The notes under the pieces: model-generated | What the model was told of the DNA's origin: nothing | Databases searched by the model: none | What the model saw: the letters and a program-made list of their open reading frames with translations, nothing else | In this document: one piece after another, positions 13,069 to 53,842 of the stretch | Layout: every line of letters begins with the position of its first letter | Position numbering within the stretch: position 1 is the first letter of the stretch | Assembly (NCBI RefSeq): GCF_011386835.1 | Contig: NC_088800.1 | Location: forward strand, 88,031,481-88,095,480 | From: Chrysemys picta bellii | Lineage: Eukaryota; Chordata; Testudines; Emydidae | Length of the DNA stretch: 64,000 bases | Reading direction: 5' to 3' | Program-made: the position numbers and the translations under genes

Positions 13069-15968
13069 CTAATAGCCATTAATGGACTTAACTGCCATGA
13101 ATTTATCCAGTTCTCTTTTAAACGCTGTTATAGTCCTAGCCTTCACAACCTCCTCAGGCAAGGAGTTCCACAGATTGACTGTGCACTGTGTGAAGAAGAA
13201 CTTCCTTTTATTTGTTTTAAACCTGCTGCCCATTAATTTCATTTGGTGGCCCCTAGTTCTTGTATTATGGGAACAAGTAAATAACTTTTCCTTATCTACT
13301 TTCTCCACATCACTCATGATTTTATAGATGTCTATCATATCCCCGCTTAGTCTCCTCTTTTCCAAGCTGAAAAGTCCTAGCCTCTTTAATCTCTCCTCAG
13401 ATGGGACCCGTTCCAAACCCCTAATCATTTTAGTTGCCCTTTTCTGAACCTTTTCTAATGCCAGTCTATCTTTTTTGAGATGAGGAGACCACATCTGTAT
13501 GCAATATTCAAGATGTGGGCGTACCATCGATTATATAAGGGCAATAAGATACTCTCCATCTTATTCTCTATCCCCTTTTTAATGATTCCTAACATTCTGT
13601 TTGCTTTTTTTACCGCTGCTGCACACTGCATGGACGTCTTCAGAGAACTATCCACGATGACTACAAAATCTTTTTCCTGATTCATTGTAGTTAAATTAGC
13701 CCCCATCATATTGTATGCATAGTTGGGGTTATTTTTTCCAATGTGCATTACTTTACATTTATCCACATTAAATTTCATTTGCCATTTTGTTGCCCAATCA
13801 CTTAGTTTTGTGAGATCTTTTTGAAGTTCTTCACAGTCTGCTTTGGTCTTAACTATCTTGAGCAGTTTAGTATCATCTGCAAACTTTGCCACCTCACTTT
13901 TTACCCCTCTCTCCAGAACATTTATGAATAAGTTGAATAGGATTGGTCCTAGGACTGACCCTTGGGGAACACCACTAGTTACCCCTCTTCATTCTGAGAA
14001 TTTACCATTTATTCCTACCCTTTGTTCCCTGTCTTTTAACCAGTTCTCAATCCACGAAAGGACCTTCCCTTTTATCCCATGACAACTTAATTTACGTAAG
14101 AGCCTTTGGTGAGGGACCTTGTCAAAGGCTTTCTGGAAATCAAAGTACACTATGTCCACTGGATCCCCCTTGTCCACATGTTTGTTGACCCCTTCAAAGA
14201 ACTCTAATAGATTAGTAAGACATGATTTCCCTTTACAGAAACCATGTTGACTTTTGCCCAACAATTTATGTTCTTCTATGTGTCTGACAATTTTATTCTT
14301 AACTATTGTTTTGACTAATTTGCCCGGTACTGATGTTAGACTTACTGATATGTAATTGATGGGATCCCCTCTAGAGCCCATTTTAAATATTGGCGTTACA
14401 TTAGCTATCTTCCAGTCATTGGTTACAGAAGCCGATTTAAAGGACAGGTTACAAACAATAGTTAATAGTTTCGCAACTTCACATTTGATTTTTTTCAGAA
14501 CTCTTGGGTGAATGCCATCTGCTCCCGGTGACTTGTTCCTGTTAAGTTTATCAATTAATTCCAAAATGTCCTCTAGTGACACTTCAATCTGTGACAATTC
14601 CTCAGATTTGTCACCTACAAAAGCCGGCTCAGGTTTGGGAATCTCCCTAACATCCTCAGCCGTGAAGACTGAAGCAAAGAATCCATTTAGTTTCTCTGCA
14701 ATGACTTTATCATCTTTAAGCGCTCCTTTTGTATCTCGATCATCCAGGGGCCCCACTGGTTGTTTAGCAGGCTTCCTGCTTCTGATGTGCTTAAAAAACA
14801 TTTTGTTATTACCTTTGGAGTTTTTGGCTGGCCATTCTTCAAACTCCTCTTTGGCTTTCCTTATTACATTTTTACACTTAATTTGGCAGTGTTTATGCTC
14901 CTTTCTATTTACCTCACTAGGATCTGACTTCCACTTTTTAAAATATGCCTTTTTATCTCTCACTGCTTCTTTTACATGGTTGTTAAGCCACAGTGGCTCT
15001 TTTTTAGTTCTTTTACTGTGTTTTTTAATTTGGAGTATACATTGAAGTTGGGCCTTTATTATAGTGTCTTTGAAAAGCGTCCATGCAGCTTGCAGGGATT
15101 TCACTTTAGTCACTGTACCTTTTAATTTCTGTTTAACTAACTCCCTCATTTTTGCATAGTTCCCCTTTCTGAAATTAAATGCCACAGTGTTGGGCTGTTG
15201 AGATGTTCTTCCCACCACAGGGATGTTAAATGTTATTATATTATGGTCACTATTTCCAAGCGGTCCTGTTATAGTTACCTCTTGGACCAGCTCCTGCGCT
15301 CCACTCAGGACTAAATCGAGAGTTGCCTCTCCCCTTGTGGGTTCCCATACCAGCTGCTCCAAGAAGCAGTCATTTAAAGTATCAAGAAATTTTGTCTCTG
15401 CATTTCATCCTGAGGTGACATGTTCCCAGTCATTATGGGGATAATTGAAATCCCCCACTATTATTGAGTTCTTAATTTTGATAGCCTCTCTAATTTCCCT
15501 TAGCATTTCATCGTCCCTATCACTGTCCTGGTCAGGTGGTCAATAATAGATCCCTAATGTTATATTCTTATTAGAGCATGAAATTTCTATCAATAGAGAT
15601 TCTATGGAACATGTGGAGTCACTTAAGATTTTTACTTCATTTGATTCTACATTTTCTTTCACATATATTGCCATTCCCCCTCCCGCACGACCTGTTCTGT
15701 CCTTCCGATACATTTTGTACTCCGGAATGATTGTGTCCCATTGATTGTCCTCAGTCCACCAGGTTTCTGTGATGCCTATTATATCAATATCCTCTTTTAT
15801 CACAAGGCACTTTAGTTCACCCATCTTATTATTTAGACTTCTAGCATTTGTGTACAAGCACTTTAAAAACTTGTCACTATTTATTTGTCTGCCCTTTTCT
15901 GATATGTCCAATTCTTTTTTATGTGAATGTTTCTCGTCTGATCTGGCTCTTACATTATCCTCTTCCAT
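13069..15968 (-). pseudogene. CR1 ORF2 (endonuclease and reverse transcriptase), disabled
   Basis: From the Met at 15968 the frame encodes an APE-like endonuclease with NARSLNNK, GITETWW and, after stops, GDFNYP and LGNSDH. It continues into an RT with VTPIFKMGSRGD, QHGFCKGKSC, YFDFQKAFDKVPH, SGVPQGSVLGPILF and the catalytic FADD. The conserved CR1 C-terminus ends [13 protein letters not shown] at 13069. One frame is interrupted by TGA codons at 15540-15542, near 15411 and at 13989-13991. The first two neighbours look like decayed Arg or Trp codons. A frameshift near 13520 moves the C-terminus to another frame. The product would nick DNA and reverse-transcribe CR1 RNA. This copy cannot make it. 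Confidence 0.92.
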
Positions 15969-34617: not shown

Positions 34618-34860
34618 GTAACTTAGCGTAGACATAGTCTAAGAATACCGCTTACGTTGATATAACTTGCGTCACTCGGGGGTGTGAACAAGCCATAAGT
34701 TACACCAACCTAAGAGCGCTGTCCACACCAGCAATCTCCACTCATTGTAGGTAGATTAATTAAATTGACAGGAGAACTCTCTCCCGTCAGCTTAGAGCGG
34801 CGCAGCTGTGTCAATACAACTGCACCATTTTAAGCTCTCTAGTGTAGTCATAGCCTTAGT
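34618..34860. mobile_element. MITE of the TGTCTACACTA family
   Basis: The ends GTAGACATAGTCTAAG and CTCTAGTGTAGTCATAGCC are diverged inverted repeats. The interior shares GACAGGAGAACTCTCTCCCG with the copies at 46.6 and 49.7 kb. It is non-coding. Confidence 0.75.
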
Positions 34861-46527: not shown

Positions 46528-46737
46528 CTGAGGCCATGTCTACACTACCACTCTCCTGAGCGACATAAGTTACGCTGTTATAAGTGGTAGTGTGCACAGT
46601 GCTATGTCCCACTGATGTAGCTACTGCTACTCGTTGGGCGTGGATTAATTGTTGATGGGAGAGCTCTCTCCTGTCGGCATAGAGTGGCATCAGTACAGCT
46701 GTGCTGCTGTAAGCTCTCTAGTGTAGACATGCCTGAG
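46528..46737. mobile_element. TGTCTACACTA-family MITE nested in DIRS 3' region
   Basis: The ends CTGAGGCCATGTCTACACTA and TAGTGTAGACATGCCTGAG are inverted repeats. The interior includes GGGAGAGCTCTCTCCTGTCG. The DIRS end sequence continues on the right with GATGTGTTGTCCATATGCAC. Confidence 0.8.
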
Positions 46738-46990
46738 ATGTGTTGTCCATATGCACATTCCACAACCTGCCTTCCATCCCCCTCTACCTCAGCGTCCTAC
46801 CAAAACTTTGTGGTGGGGAGGAAACTAAGTGGTGGTTGGCACCCTCTGCCCTCTTATTTCTTTGTAGGGTGAGGACATTTAGGTTGCACGAGCAGCCAAA
46901 AGGGACACTGGGGTCCAAAAAACTCATCTGGGGTGCATGCACCCCCTAAATTAAATATGCATGTAGACAATACATCTTGAAGAAATCTAG

Positions 46991-49298: not shown

Positions 49299-49793
49299 AG
49301 GCTATGTCTACACTGTGGATCTTACATTGGTACAACTGTACCACTGCAGCTGTGTCGCTGTAAGGTCTCCTGTGTAGCCACTCTATGCCAATGGGAGAGA
49401 GCTCTCCTGCCAGCATAATTAAACCACCCCCAACGAGCGGTGGTAGCTGTTGATGGGAGAGTGTCTCCCTCTGACATAGCGCTTCTCCACACTGGTCTTT
49501 TGTCAATGAAACTTTTGTAAGTCAGGGATGTGTTGTTTTTTTCCCACACCCCTGACCGACAAAAGTGCTAGTGTAGACATAGCCTCAGGTGAATATTCAC
49601 CCCCTAAGTGACATAAGTTACACCCGTCATAAGCGCTAGTGTGCACAGTGCTATGTTGGTGGGAGAACTGCAACCGCCGATCGTTGAAGGTGGATTAATT
49701 ATGTTGACAGGAGAGCTCTCTCCCATTTTTAGTGGCTACATGTGACATCTTACACTGGTGCAGCTGTAAGCACTCTAGTGTAGACATAGCCTT
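49299..49793. mobile_element. Two adjoining TGTCTACACTA-family MITEs
   Basis: The first (about 49299-49585) begins TAGGCTATGTCTACACTG and ends CTAGTGTAGACATAGCCTCAG. The second (about 49586-49793) has the right end CTCTAGTGTAGACATAGCCTTAG in separate parts, and an interior GACAGGAGAGCTCTCTCCCA shared with the copies at 34.8 and 46.7 kb, but its left end is incomplete. Non-coding. Confidence 0.75.
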
Positions 49794-49855: not shown

Positions 49856-52402
49856 TAACACTGCTCTACAGCCAAAATGCTTCTGAAATAAATATAGTCA
49901 AACTTTACTAATTCTGGGTCACTGAGAACGAAAATGATGCTTAAAATTGTTGATTGGCTCTAGTTTTCAAGATATGCTATTGGGTCAGTATATACGACCC
50001 TTGACTTGGGAATGGCGGAGGATAAGTGAGTTATAAAGGGAAGGGATCTCAATTTAAACCAGAAATGACTAAAATACATCTTTGACTGGATCTATGAATA
50101 AATCTATGACTGGGTTTGGATAGTACTTGCTTTTTAGGCAAAACAATGAATGATGCAATCTGAAGCTAGTATTGCGTCATACATTATATGAATTGCATCA
50201 TGTTATTCCTAGAAGTCATGGATGATGCAGTCATAATGAAGCTTACATCACTCTGCTGAACAAATTGCCCTATATCAGCTCTAGAAATCATACAGTGTCG
50301 TGCTCTCTTATTTGTCAGTGTTTGATTTTGCAAAGGGACACATTTCTGTTTAGCCAAAGTGAGCAGAGATGCCTCGTACTTGTGTGAACAATGCAGATAA
50401 CTTCTGCTATGTTTGTGGTGAAGTGACTTTTGCATCACAAAAGCACAGTATAACCACTATGGTTAAGAAAGCCTATCACCTTTCTTTTGGCTGCAAAATT
50501 GGAGATCAGGACAAGAGGTGGGCCCTACACATATGCTGCAACACTTGTGCAACAAATCTTCGCCAGTGGTTGAACAGGAAAAGGAAATCTGTGCCTTTTG
50601 CAGTGCCAATGATTTGGAGAGAGCCAACAGATCATACCAGCAATTGTTACTTCTGCATGGTGCCTCCAGTTGGGAAAGGTGTGTCAAAGAAGAAAAAGTG
50701 GACTGTGCATTATCCAAACATTCCATCAGCTATACACCCAGTACCCCACGGAGAAGGACTGCCGGTTCCTGATGCACCAGAATCATTCTCACTTGAGTCA
50801 GACGAGGAAGAGGATGAAACTTCTGGTCCTGAACCATCAATGTCACAGGGCCCACATTTTCTCCCATCCTCCTCCTCTGAATTACACCTCATAACACAAG
50901 GTGAACTGAATGACCTTGTCAGGGATTTGGAACTACCCAAGAGTAAGGCAGAGCTGTTGGGCTCCAGACTACAGCAGTGGAATCTCCTGGCAGGTGATGT
51001 TAGGGTTTCCATGTTCCATGACTGTCAAAAGGATCTTGTCCCATTCTTCTTCATGGAAGGTGATCTTGTAGCCTGCAACAACATCGACGGTGTGATGGCA
51101 GCCCTCAACATCGTTCACGATCCAGATGAGTGGAGACTGTTCATTGATTCATCGAAGACGAGTCTTAAAGCTGTTTTACTGCATAATGGCAATGTTTTGC
51201 CATCAATTCCAGTTGGTCATGCAGTCCATATGGAGGAAACCTATGACAACATGAAACAACTTTTGAGGTGCATAAACTATGACCAACATCAGTGGCAGCT
51301 TTGTGGCGATTTGAAGGTTGTTGCTCTCTTGCTTGGTCTGCCGACTGGATACACAAAGTACTGCTGTTTTCTCTGCGAATGGGATAGTTGTGCAAGAGAT
51401 TCCCACTACATCAAGAAAGATTGGCCACTCCGACAGTCATTAGAGCCTGGGAGGAAAAGTGTTCAGCATCCACCACTTGTTGAATCACGGAAGATTTTGT
51501 TACCACCCTTACAAATCAAGCTGTGTCTGATGAAGAACTTTGTCAAGGCCATTGACAAAACACAAGCAGCTTTCAAGTACCTCCATGGAAATTTTCCATG
51601 GTTAAGTGATGCTAAGATAAAGGAAGGTTTCTTTGTTGGTCCTCAGATTCGTGAACTTCTTCGAGATGATGCATTTGACCATGCACTGCGTGGCAAGGAA
51701 AGGACGGCATGGAAAGCCTTCCAGTTAGTGGCAATAAATTTTCTCGGAAACAACAAGGCAGACAACTACAGGTTGTTGGTGGAAAACCTCCTCAAGGCAT
51801 ACAAAAGCCTTGGTTGCATCATGTCACTAAAGATACATTTTTTGCACTCTCATCTAGATTTTTTTTCCCACCGAACTGCGGAGCGACGAGCATGGCGAGC
51901 GATTTCACCAGGACATTGCAACAATGGAGAAACGCTATCAGGGCAAATGGACCCCATCAATGCTTGCAGACTATTGCTGGACAGTGACAAGAGATGCTCC
52001 ATTTAATGAATACAAGAGACAAGCCAAGAAGCGCCAAGTAGACACTGAATAGGACTAAACTATGTACATAATAGTTTTTTGCCTTTTTGTTTCATAATAA
52101 ATTTTATTTACATAACCCTTTTTGCTGATTTTTAAAGTGTTACATAAACAGGACAGGTGAAATATTATCATGTAAAGCAACCATAAACACCTGAAAAGAC
52201 TTAGGTTTACAATTTATGATTAAAACTCTACTATCTACACAATATACATAGACATAAAATGTAAAAACTTAAGTATCTTAGAAACAGTAGCCAATCAGTT
52301 GTTTTAATTGTCATATTTGAATTCAGCACATCAAAATACATAATAAATAGCACATTTTATCTCTGAAGCAGACAACTTCTCAAAAATTGTAGACCAGTGT
52401 AA
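49856..52402 (+). mobile_element. Candidate autonomous DNA transposon of unrecognised family
   Basis: One large gene (50369-52052) is bracketed by diverged inverted repeats of about 120 bp. The left end, TAACACTGCTCTACAG then TGATGCTTAAAATTGTTGATTGGCTCTAGTTT in parts (49856-49985), pairs with the complement of the right end, TTACACTGGTCTACA then TTAAAACAACTGATTGGCTA (52270-52402). Both share ACACTG-TCTACA at the tip and TGATTGGCT-GTTT-AAGATA further in. An AATAAA signal at 52096-52101 follows the gene. I could not fix a target duplication. The gene shows little decay, in contrast to the LINEs nearby, so insertion looks recent. Confidence 0.7.
50369..52052 (+). pseudogene. Transposase-like zinc-binding protein, one frameshift
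   Basis: The open frame runs 545 codons from the ATG at 50369. A run of eight T at 51859-51866 appears to carry one extra base. In the other frame the sequence continues SDEHGERFHQDI and onward to a TAG at 52050-52052, giving an original protein of roughly 560 residues. The N-terminus has Cys pairs CYVC (13-16), CCNTC (56-60) and CYFC (93-96), suggesting zinc binding. Residues 136-170 are acidic and serine-rich. Possible catalytic acidic residues are Asp260 (RLFIDSSK), Asp314 (QLCGDLKV) and a Glu in DEHGERFHQD after the frameshift. A CCFLC...H cluster at 332-347 lies between the second and third. This layout resembles an RNase-H-fold DDE transposase with an inserted zinc site. I do not recognise a named family and the role is inferred from the inverted repeats around it. 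Confidence 0.65.
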
Positions 52403-52744: not shown

Positions 52745-53842
52745 AACTGGCTTAGTGGGTGGGGGAAGCAATAGATTTCATTGATCTTAACTTTAGTAAG
52801 GCTTTTGATACTGTCCTGCATGATACTTTCATAAACAAACTAGAGAAATATGGTCTAGATGAAATGGGGGCACAACTGGTTGAAAAAACATATTTCAAAA
52901 GTAGTTATCAACAGTTTGCTGTCAAACTGGGAAGGACATATCAAGTGGTGTCCCAAAGGGGTTTTTCCTTTGTCCAATACTAGTCAATATTTTTGTTAAT
53001 GACTTGGAAAATGGAGTGTAGAGTGTGCTTGCAAAATTTGCAGATGACTTCAAGCTGGGAAGGATTGCAAGCACTTTAGAGGACAAGATTAGAATTCAAA
53101 ATGATCTTGATAAATTGGACAATTGGTCTGAATTCAGTACGATGAAAATTAATAAAGATACGTGCAAAATACTATCTTAAGAAAAAATCAACTGCACAAA
53201 TACAAAATAACTGGCTAGGCAGCGTTACCACAATAAAAGCCCTAGGGGTTATAGTGGATCCCAAATTGAAACTGAGTCAAAAGAATGACACTGTTGTGTG
53301 AAAAAGGCAAATGTCATTTTGGGATGTATTAACGGGCATGTCCTGTGTAAGACATGGTCAGTAATTGCTCCACTTACTTTTGAGGGCTCAGCTGGAGTGG
53401 TGTCCAGTTTTGGACACCACACTTAAAGATTTGGACAAACTGGAGAGAGTCCAGAGGAGAGCAACAAAAATAAGAGGATTAGAAAACCTGACCTGTGAGG
53501 AAAGGTTGAAAGAATTGGGCATGTTTAGTCTAGAGAAAAGAAGCCATGGGTGAAGGGCAGTACACAGCATAGTCTTCAAATATGCAAAAGGTTCTTATAA
53601 AGAGGATGGTGACAGGATGTCAGTCATCAATTATTCTCCACACCTACCAAGTCTGGGACAAGAATTATTTGGCTTAATTTGCAGCAAGGGAGGTTTAGGT
53701 TAGCTACAAGGGAAAATGTTCTCCCATAGTTATCCCTGTCATTGGGAGATTTCTAAGAACAGGTTAGACAGACATCTGTCAGGGTTGGTCTACGTGCCCT
53801 CTTGAGGTCCATTTCATCCCTATACTTTCATGATTCTGTGAT
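52745..53842 (+). mobile_element. CR1 fragment, plus strand with 3' end
   Basis: It encodes IDFIDLNFSKAFDTVLHDTF (the RT motif with the first catalytic Asp region), then degenerate FADDFKLG, then [14 protein letters not shown] and [15 protein letters not shown], the conserved CR1 C-terminus. It ends in CCCTATACTTTCATGATTCTGTG, the tail motif with ATTCTGTGATT. Several stops and frameshifts are present. Confidence 0.85.

Follow-up and report, generated by a model that had tools for sequence, protein, structure and literature searches.

The stretch of DNA analysed here (the window) comprises 64,000 nucleotides of the painted turtle Chrysemys picta bellii (contig NC_088800.1, positions 88,031,481 to 88,095,480, forward strand). 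With a probability that we put at roughly 0.93, positions 49859-52399 of this window are a copy, mutated but of full length, of a DNA transposon that bears the hallmarks of Chapaev3, with a transposase for which a fold like that of RAG1 and Transib is predicted; the element was likely cut at its CAC ends and pasted into A-TWA-T sites. The element is present around 4,000 times in the genome, mostly at full length. A sequence-only reading of the window had proposed an autonomous-type cut-and-paste DNA transposon of recent arrival, and both proposals are supported; its statement that the gene matches no transposase family is not borne out, as the anatomy points to a described group, namely Chapaev3.

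Anatomy of the element

Chapaev3 elements are described as ending in CAC/GTG, with TWA duplications set between A and T, and as carrying the C(2)C, LH and H(4)H motifs (PMC4079192). CAC...GTG termini, a 3-bp TWA duplication, the three motifs and the Asp-Asp-Glu (DDE) residues in a predicted RNase H-like fold were all found here, in the following arrangement:

49859..52399, + strand: Chapaev3-type DNA transposon, 2,541 bp, CACTG...CAGTG; the 30 best copies (window copy included) align over about the whole element
49856..49858, + strand: left target-site duplication TAA, same letters as 52400-52402
52400..52402, + strand: right target-site duplication TAA, read from the sequence and the copy comparison
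49859..49974, + strand: left imperfect terminal inverted repeat with tip CACTGCTCTACA and block TGATTGGCT, from its alignment to the right end
52274..52399, - strand: right imperfect terminal inverted repeat with tip CACTGGTCTACA read on the - strand, from its alignment to the left end
50369..51871, + strand: transposase frame as far as the frameshift (545 codons when read to its stop), ATG at 50369, from the list of open reading frames
50369..50788, + strand: N-terminal zinc-type domain, residues 1-140, from conserved Cys/His and structure prediction
51146..51148, + strand: first catalytic Asp, D260, in 109 of 109 alignment rows and in the first predicted core strand (255-261)
51308..51310, + strand: second catalytic Asp, D314, 109 of 109 rows
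51365..51376, + strand: C(2)C motif, C333-C336, 109 of 109 rows
51512..51514, + strand: His position of the LH motif, His in 108 of 109 rows, the sole Gln row being the window copy
51836..51853, + strand: H(4)H motif, H490 and H495, 109 of 109 rows
51858..52052, + strand: remainder of the transposase, in a second frame (SDEHGERFHQD... to the TAG at 52050-52052), from the list of open reading frames
51897..51899, + strand: Glu of the shifted frame (E512 in relatives), likely the third catalytic acid, 108 of 109 rows with one gap
52096..52101, + strand: AATAAA, putative poly(A) signal, read from the sequence

The bounds first given for the element, 49856..52402, hold as to its place, while the span takes in both TAA duplications and the element proper is 49859-52399. 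The inverted repeats of about 120 bp with common tips, which the sequence-only reading had noticed, are confirmed: 85 of 134 alignment columns are identical, a score reached by none of 1,000 dinucleotide shuffles, and the same was true (0 of 1,000) once the 13-bp tip was taken away. Within the tip, the ACACTG and TCTACA blocks are separated by one base. A weaker result came from a lax alignment of the 300-bp ends, which scored narrowly above 300 shuffles (114.4 vs 110.9), and the six inverted pairs reported in the window by a seed-based repeat finder do not include the element ends. The 5' untranslated part holds ATGATGCA three times, at 50150-50157 (+), 50194-50201 (-) and 50222-50229 (+); these are possible transposase binding sites.

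The 545-codon frame from the ATG at 50369 stands as reported by the sequence-only reading, as do the AATAAA at 52096-52101 and the DEHGERFHQD word beyond one frameshift, which lies in the second frame (51858-52052); the Cys-x2-Cys pairs, given as three or more, are four (residues 13/16, 57/60, 93/96 and 333/336). The C-terminus of proteins P0001 and P0002 carries the same words as this shifted frame, and E509 is an alternative third acid (107 of 109 rows). Of 7,993 protein candidates scored, 2,034 are relatives at E <= 1e-3. The window copy, damaged by one frameshift and by Gln in place of the LH His, is not functional.

Copies, insertion sites and age

A whole-genome DNA search gave 3,809 first-look candidates, of which 40 were scored and 30 fetched (L009-L038, L009 being the window copy). 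The 40 scored copies match at 96-100%, the 100% being the window copy itself, and all 30 fetched copies align over essentially the whole element. With up to two mismatches, the left end occurs 4,129 times in the genome (2,087+2,042), the right end 4,047 times (1,970+2,077) and a catalytic-core word 3,754 times (1,910+1,844), with 0 matches to each reversed-pattern control; the three counts are unpaired, and diverged copies escape them. Of the first 100 exact left ends listed on contig 1, 61 come with an exact right end inside 6 kb, at a spacing of 2,450-2,650 bp in 45, shorter in 6 and longer in 10, and the other 39 have none, from mutation, truncation or insertion. Twenty of these left ends were fetched with flanks, a positional sample of perfect left ends only and hence biased to young copies: 16 have a right end (14 at about 2.5 kb, two internally deleted) and four have none within the fetched stretch. 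From end spacing and fetched copies together, full-length copies therefore dominate, and a lack of other copies, named earlier as an outcome that would speak against a DNA transposon, is excluded.

A 3-bp duplication flanks 26 of the 30 best copies, 24 of them with TTA or TAA, and 12 of the 16 positional copies, 11 of them with TTA or TAA, two sets that share no copy; when the right flanks were shuffled among the 30 copies over 2,000 rounds, duplication matches averaged 11.4 with a maximum of 20. A directly precedes the left duplication in 22 of the 30 and T directly follows the right one in 25; all 30 end in CAGTG, and 28 start with CAC (L013 and L030 with AAC). The A-TWA-T target is a strong preference, not an absolute one. 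Five of the 30 joined flanks match across the junction to a repeat without the element, and such empty sites are gap-free for L012 (79% identical) and L033 (73%). L029 and L033 have the 12 bases left of the insertion in common, with different right sides.

The distance to the majority sequence is 0.94-1.65% (mean 1.36%) in the 30 best copies and 1.26-1.77% (mean 1.55%) in 14 positional copies, and the star-like pattern among the copy sequences suggests one burst. Over these 44 copies, substitution rates are 0.0143, 0.0136 and 0.0126 at codon positions 1, 2 and 3 and 0.0135 in non-coding parts, and, these being about equal, the copies look neutral. The human rate is near 2.2e-9 per year. By applying a turtle rate of about a third of the human one (PMC4054807), a distance of 1.55% translates into roughly 20 million years, good only to an order of magnitude. 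Of the 30 best copies, 8 still have an open frame of 562-563 codons, and 2 of the 14 positional copies have one of 564 codons.

These rates bear on the idea of a host gene domesticated from a transposase, to which public gene models on relatives in Chrysemys and lamprey would lend some colour. The dispersal of thousands of copies with ends and duplications argues against it, as do the about equal codon-position rates, which give no sign of selection since insertion; the idea has next to no probability left and is refuted for the window copy. Dispersed copies and target duplications also speak against a syntenic intron-bearing orthologue, for which no search was made.

Around the window copy, an inverted repeat of 52 nt (49400-49451 / 49666-49717, 83% complementary) lies just left of the element, and the left flank resembles 46631-46738 and pieces of 34742-34859 and looks like another repeat family. 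An open stretch at 52756-52983 with FIDLNFSKAFDTV resembles the reverse transcriptase of a long interspersed nuclear element.

Predicted fold and family assignment

Structure prediction gives the transposase an RNase H-like fold that matches RAG1 and Transib. RNase H models of reverse transcriptases are hit by 4 of 80 and 3 of 80 members (best E 0.0059), a weak result that agrees with the fold. Matches to the RAG1 importin-binding model, seen in 3 of 80 members (best E 0.23) and in 0 of 28, are no evidence by themselves. Sequence searches of the PDB reached best E values of 0.45 (protein), 1.9 (profile) and 0.58 (N-terminus), with no match for P0111; none of 108 Foldseek matches to viral models was under E 0.001, none of the 100 stretches of viral contigs that fit the pattern is a relative, and the papers listed in a literature search for the protein motifs were unrelated. 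The shared fold might point to a Transib or RAG-like transposon, which we hold to be very improbable. Transib makes target duplications of 5 bp, whereas those of the sampled copies are 3 bp; instead of the adjacent RAG1-like and RAG2-like genes of RAG-like elements, the coding part of the 2.5-kb element consists of a single transposase gene, with no RAG2-like partner; and identity to the RAG and Transib chains among the matches listed is just 12-14%. In the literature, the same motifs are used to group Chapaev with EnSpm, Mirage, Transib and RAG1 (PMC12730594), and a published tree places Chapaev3 outside Transib and TransibSU (PMC4411706).

A dimer of the transposase may grip the inverted ends via the N-terminal zinc domain and the helices ahead of the core. 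RAG1, Transib and hAT make flank hairpins, and double-strand breaks at the ends of the Chapaev3-type element could likewise arise via such hairpins, with reinsertion at a 3-bp stagger. Cutting at the CAC ends and pasting into A-TWA-T sites would be the likely course, and a single brief burst, following an arrival that was likely horizontal, would have given rise to the copies, which would since have decayed neutrally.

The N-terminal domain, predicted alone with a mean predicted local distance difference test (pLDDT) of 85, keeps C13/C16, C57/C60, C93/C96, H89 and H127 in 107-109 of 109 rows and probably corresponds to the 'Chapa' domain of the literature. All six entries that VIA lists for it are ZADs, and zf-AD is listed for 1 of 28 members, at a best E of 0.0017, and for 3 of 80, at a best E of 0.37. 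No zf-AD was found for the window N-terminus, and hhalign against the ZNF276 ZAD profile gave a probability of 0.22 and a score of 11.3, under 60 Cys-fixed shuffles (mean 13.1, max 25.2). A ZAD-type N-terminus is kept as a lead only. A zf-AD search of the genome gave 8 matches, 3 over cut-off and none at the listed places of the element; ZAD domains over the Pfam cut-off lie at L059:1480-1767, with relatives that include a ZNF276 record, and at L060, within a 415-residue open frame. A wider proposal holds that thousands of recent, mostly full-length copies, some of which may still move, encode a single protein on the RAG1 plan (an N-terminal zinc domain of ZAD-type fold that carries three C-x2-C pairs and is followed by a RAG1-fold DDE core), so that a pre-RAG2 state of the V(D)J recombinase would be open to study in a living vertebrate; we consider this unlikely.

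The element is filed as Chapaev3 on its anatomy and, set against that group by published description only, appears Merrow-like, not proven Merrow. The sequence-only reading saw a transposase of no family that it could name, and a new superfamily would be in line with the lack of a convincing Pfam, NCBIfam or PDB sequence match; the hidden Markov model check that it suggested was negative in Pfam. The tips, the TWA duplication, the three motifs, the length (562) and the element size nonetheless agree with published Chapaev3, and a new superfamily has only a slight chance of being correct.

Several observations weigh against the Chapaev3 assignment and its insertion model. The comparison with named Chapaev3 elements rests on published descriptions, not on sequences. 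Pfam gave nothing convincing (0 families for the window protein), and PF06918 (DUF1280), equated with Chapaev (PMC3985635), is absent from the 14 families listed for 28 members and from the listed 25 of 30 families for 80 members. Merrow is described with two exons, whereas the window frame runs unbroken across codon 78, an unbroken frame being found in most other Chapaev3 (PMC4079192). As to fold, other HzTransib entries score only 11.4-12.1. As to insertion, a matching 3-bp duplication is missing from 4 of 30 and 4 of 16 copies, the duplications of L011, L013 and L044 read TAT, CTA and ATA, and the window copy has G, not A, ahead of its duplication; both gap-free empty sites (L012, L033) fall in one repeat family, that at window positions 13217-13601, the joined flank of L021 (90%) has a 7-bp gap at the junction, and those of L015 and L038 match only briefly.

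Probable horizontal transfer and comparison with known systems

The nearest named relative is a Chrysemys protein (89% over 74%), and the closest named relative listed from outside the turtles is a lamprey protein (80% over 94%). In a 59-row tree made by a quick method, the lamprey protein, a Chrysemys protein, the window copy and two unnamed rows form one clade (Shimodaira-Hasegawa-like approximate likelihood ratio test, SH-aLRT, 99), with a frog protein in a separate clade, although frog and turtle are expected to be closer by host descent. In addition, the lamprey gene model is frameshifted over one stretch, where 30 of 34 residues agree with a different reading frame of the window; therefore the DNA itself is similar between the two. 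Old paralogous lineages with losses might give a tree of this kind, but would account less readily for the similar DNA. The horizontal acquisition raised as possible by the first reading is thus plausible on both counts, and transfer into turtles, with a lamprey link, is probable. Two public gene models are built on this transposase, LOC133349820 in lamprey (P0005) and LOC101953070 in the painted turtle (P0011), and are probably not host genes.

Among the papers listed in searches without most subscription journals or Repbase Reports, none describes this family in turtles, and neither 'Chapaev' nor 'turtle' is present in the main text of a vertebrate transfer survey (PMC7070016). The 120 relatives listed all lack a Pfam domain, and those that have names are labelled uncharacterized or hypothetical, so that the transposase escapes routine annotation. 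The burst is clean, with few internally deleted copies. DNA transposons often leave an outcome rich in miniature inverted-repeat transposable elements, unlike this burst. The open-frame copies offer a natural test bed for DNA cutting by RAG1-type transposases.

Among known systems, Merrow (Repbase Chapaev3-1_PM; lampreys, fishes), with 2,451-2,455 bp and 562 residues (78+484), resembles the turtle element in the 562-residue total of intact copies, in size, and in Chapaev3 tips, duplication and motifs, and differs by its two exons against an uninterrupted frame and by its >254 copies in sea lamprey against ~4,000 here (PMC4079192). Garfield (Chapaev3; insects, a bracovirus) shares the group hallmarks, and its 556 residues equal the length of the moth relative P0111; it differs by its size of 2,289 bp (~2.29 kb), and P0111, 56% identical to the window protein, is set beside it by description only (PMC4079192). 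The CACTA element Spongebob (PMC4298943) was considered and is different. hAT-6_XT of turtles is also a recent turtle DNA transposon judged horizontal, but is a separate element of the hAT superfamily with 8-bp duplications, as opposed to 3 bp here (PMC11008031). From RAG1 and Transib, finally, the element is set apart by duplication length, by the missing RAG2-like partner and by the 12-14% identity.
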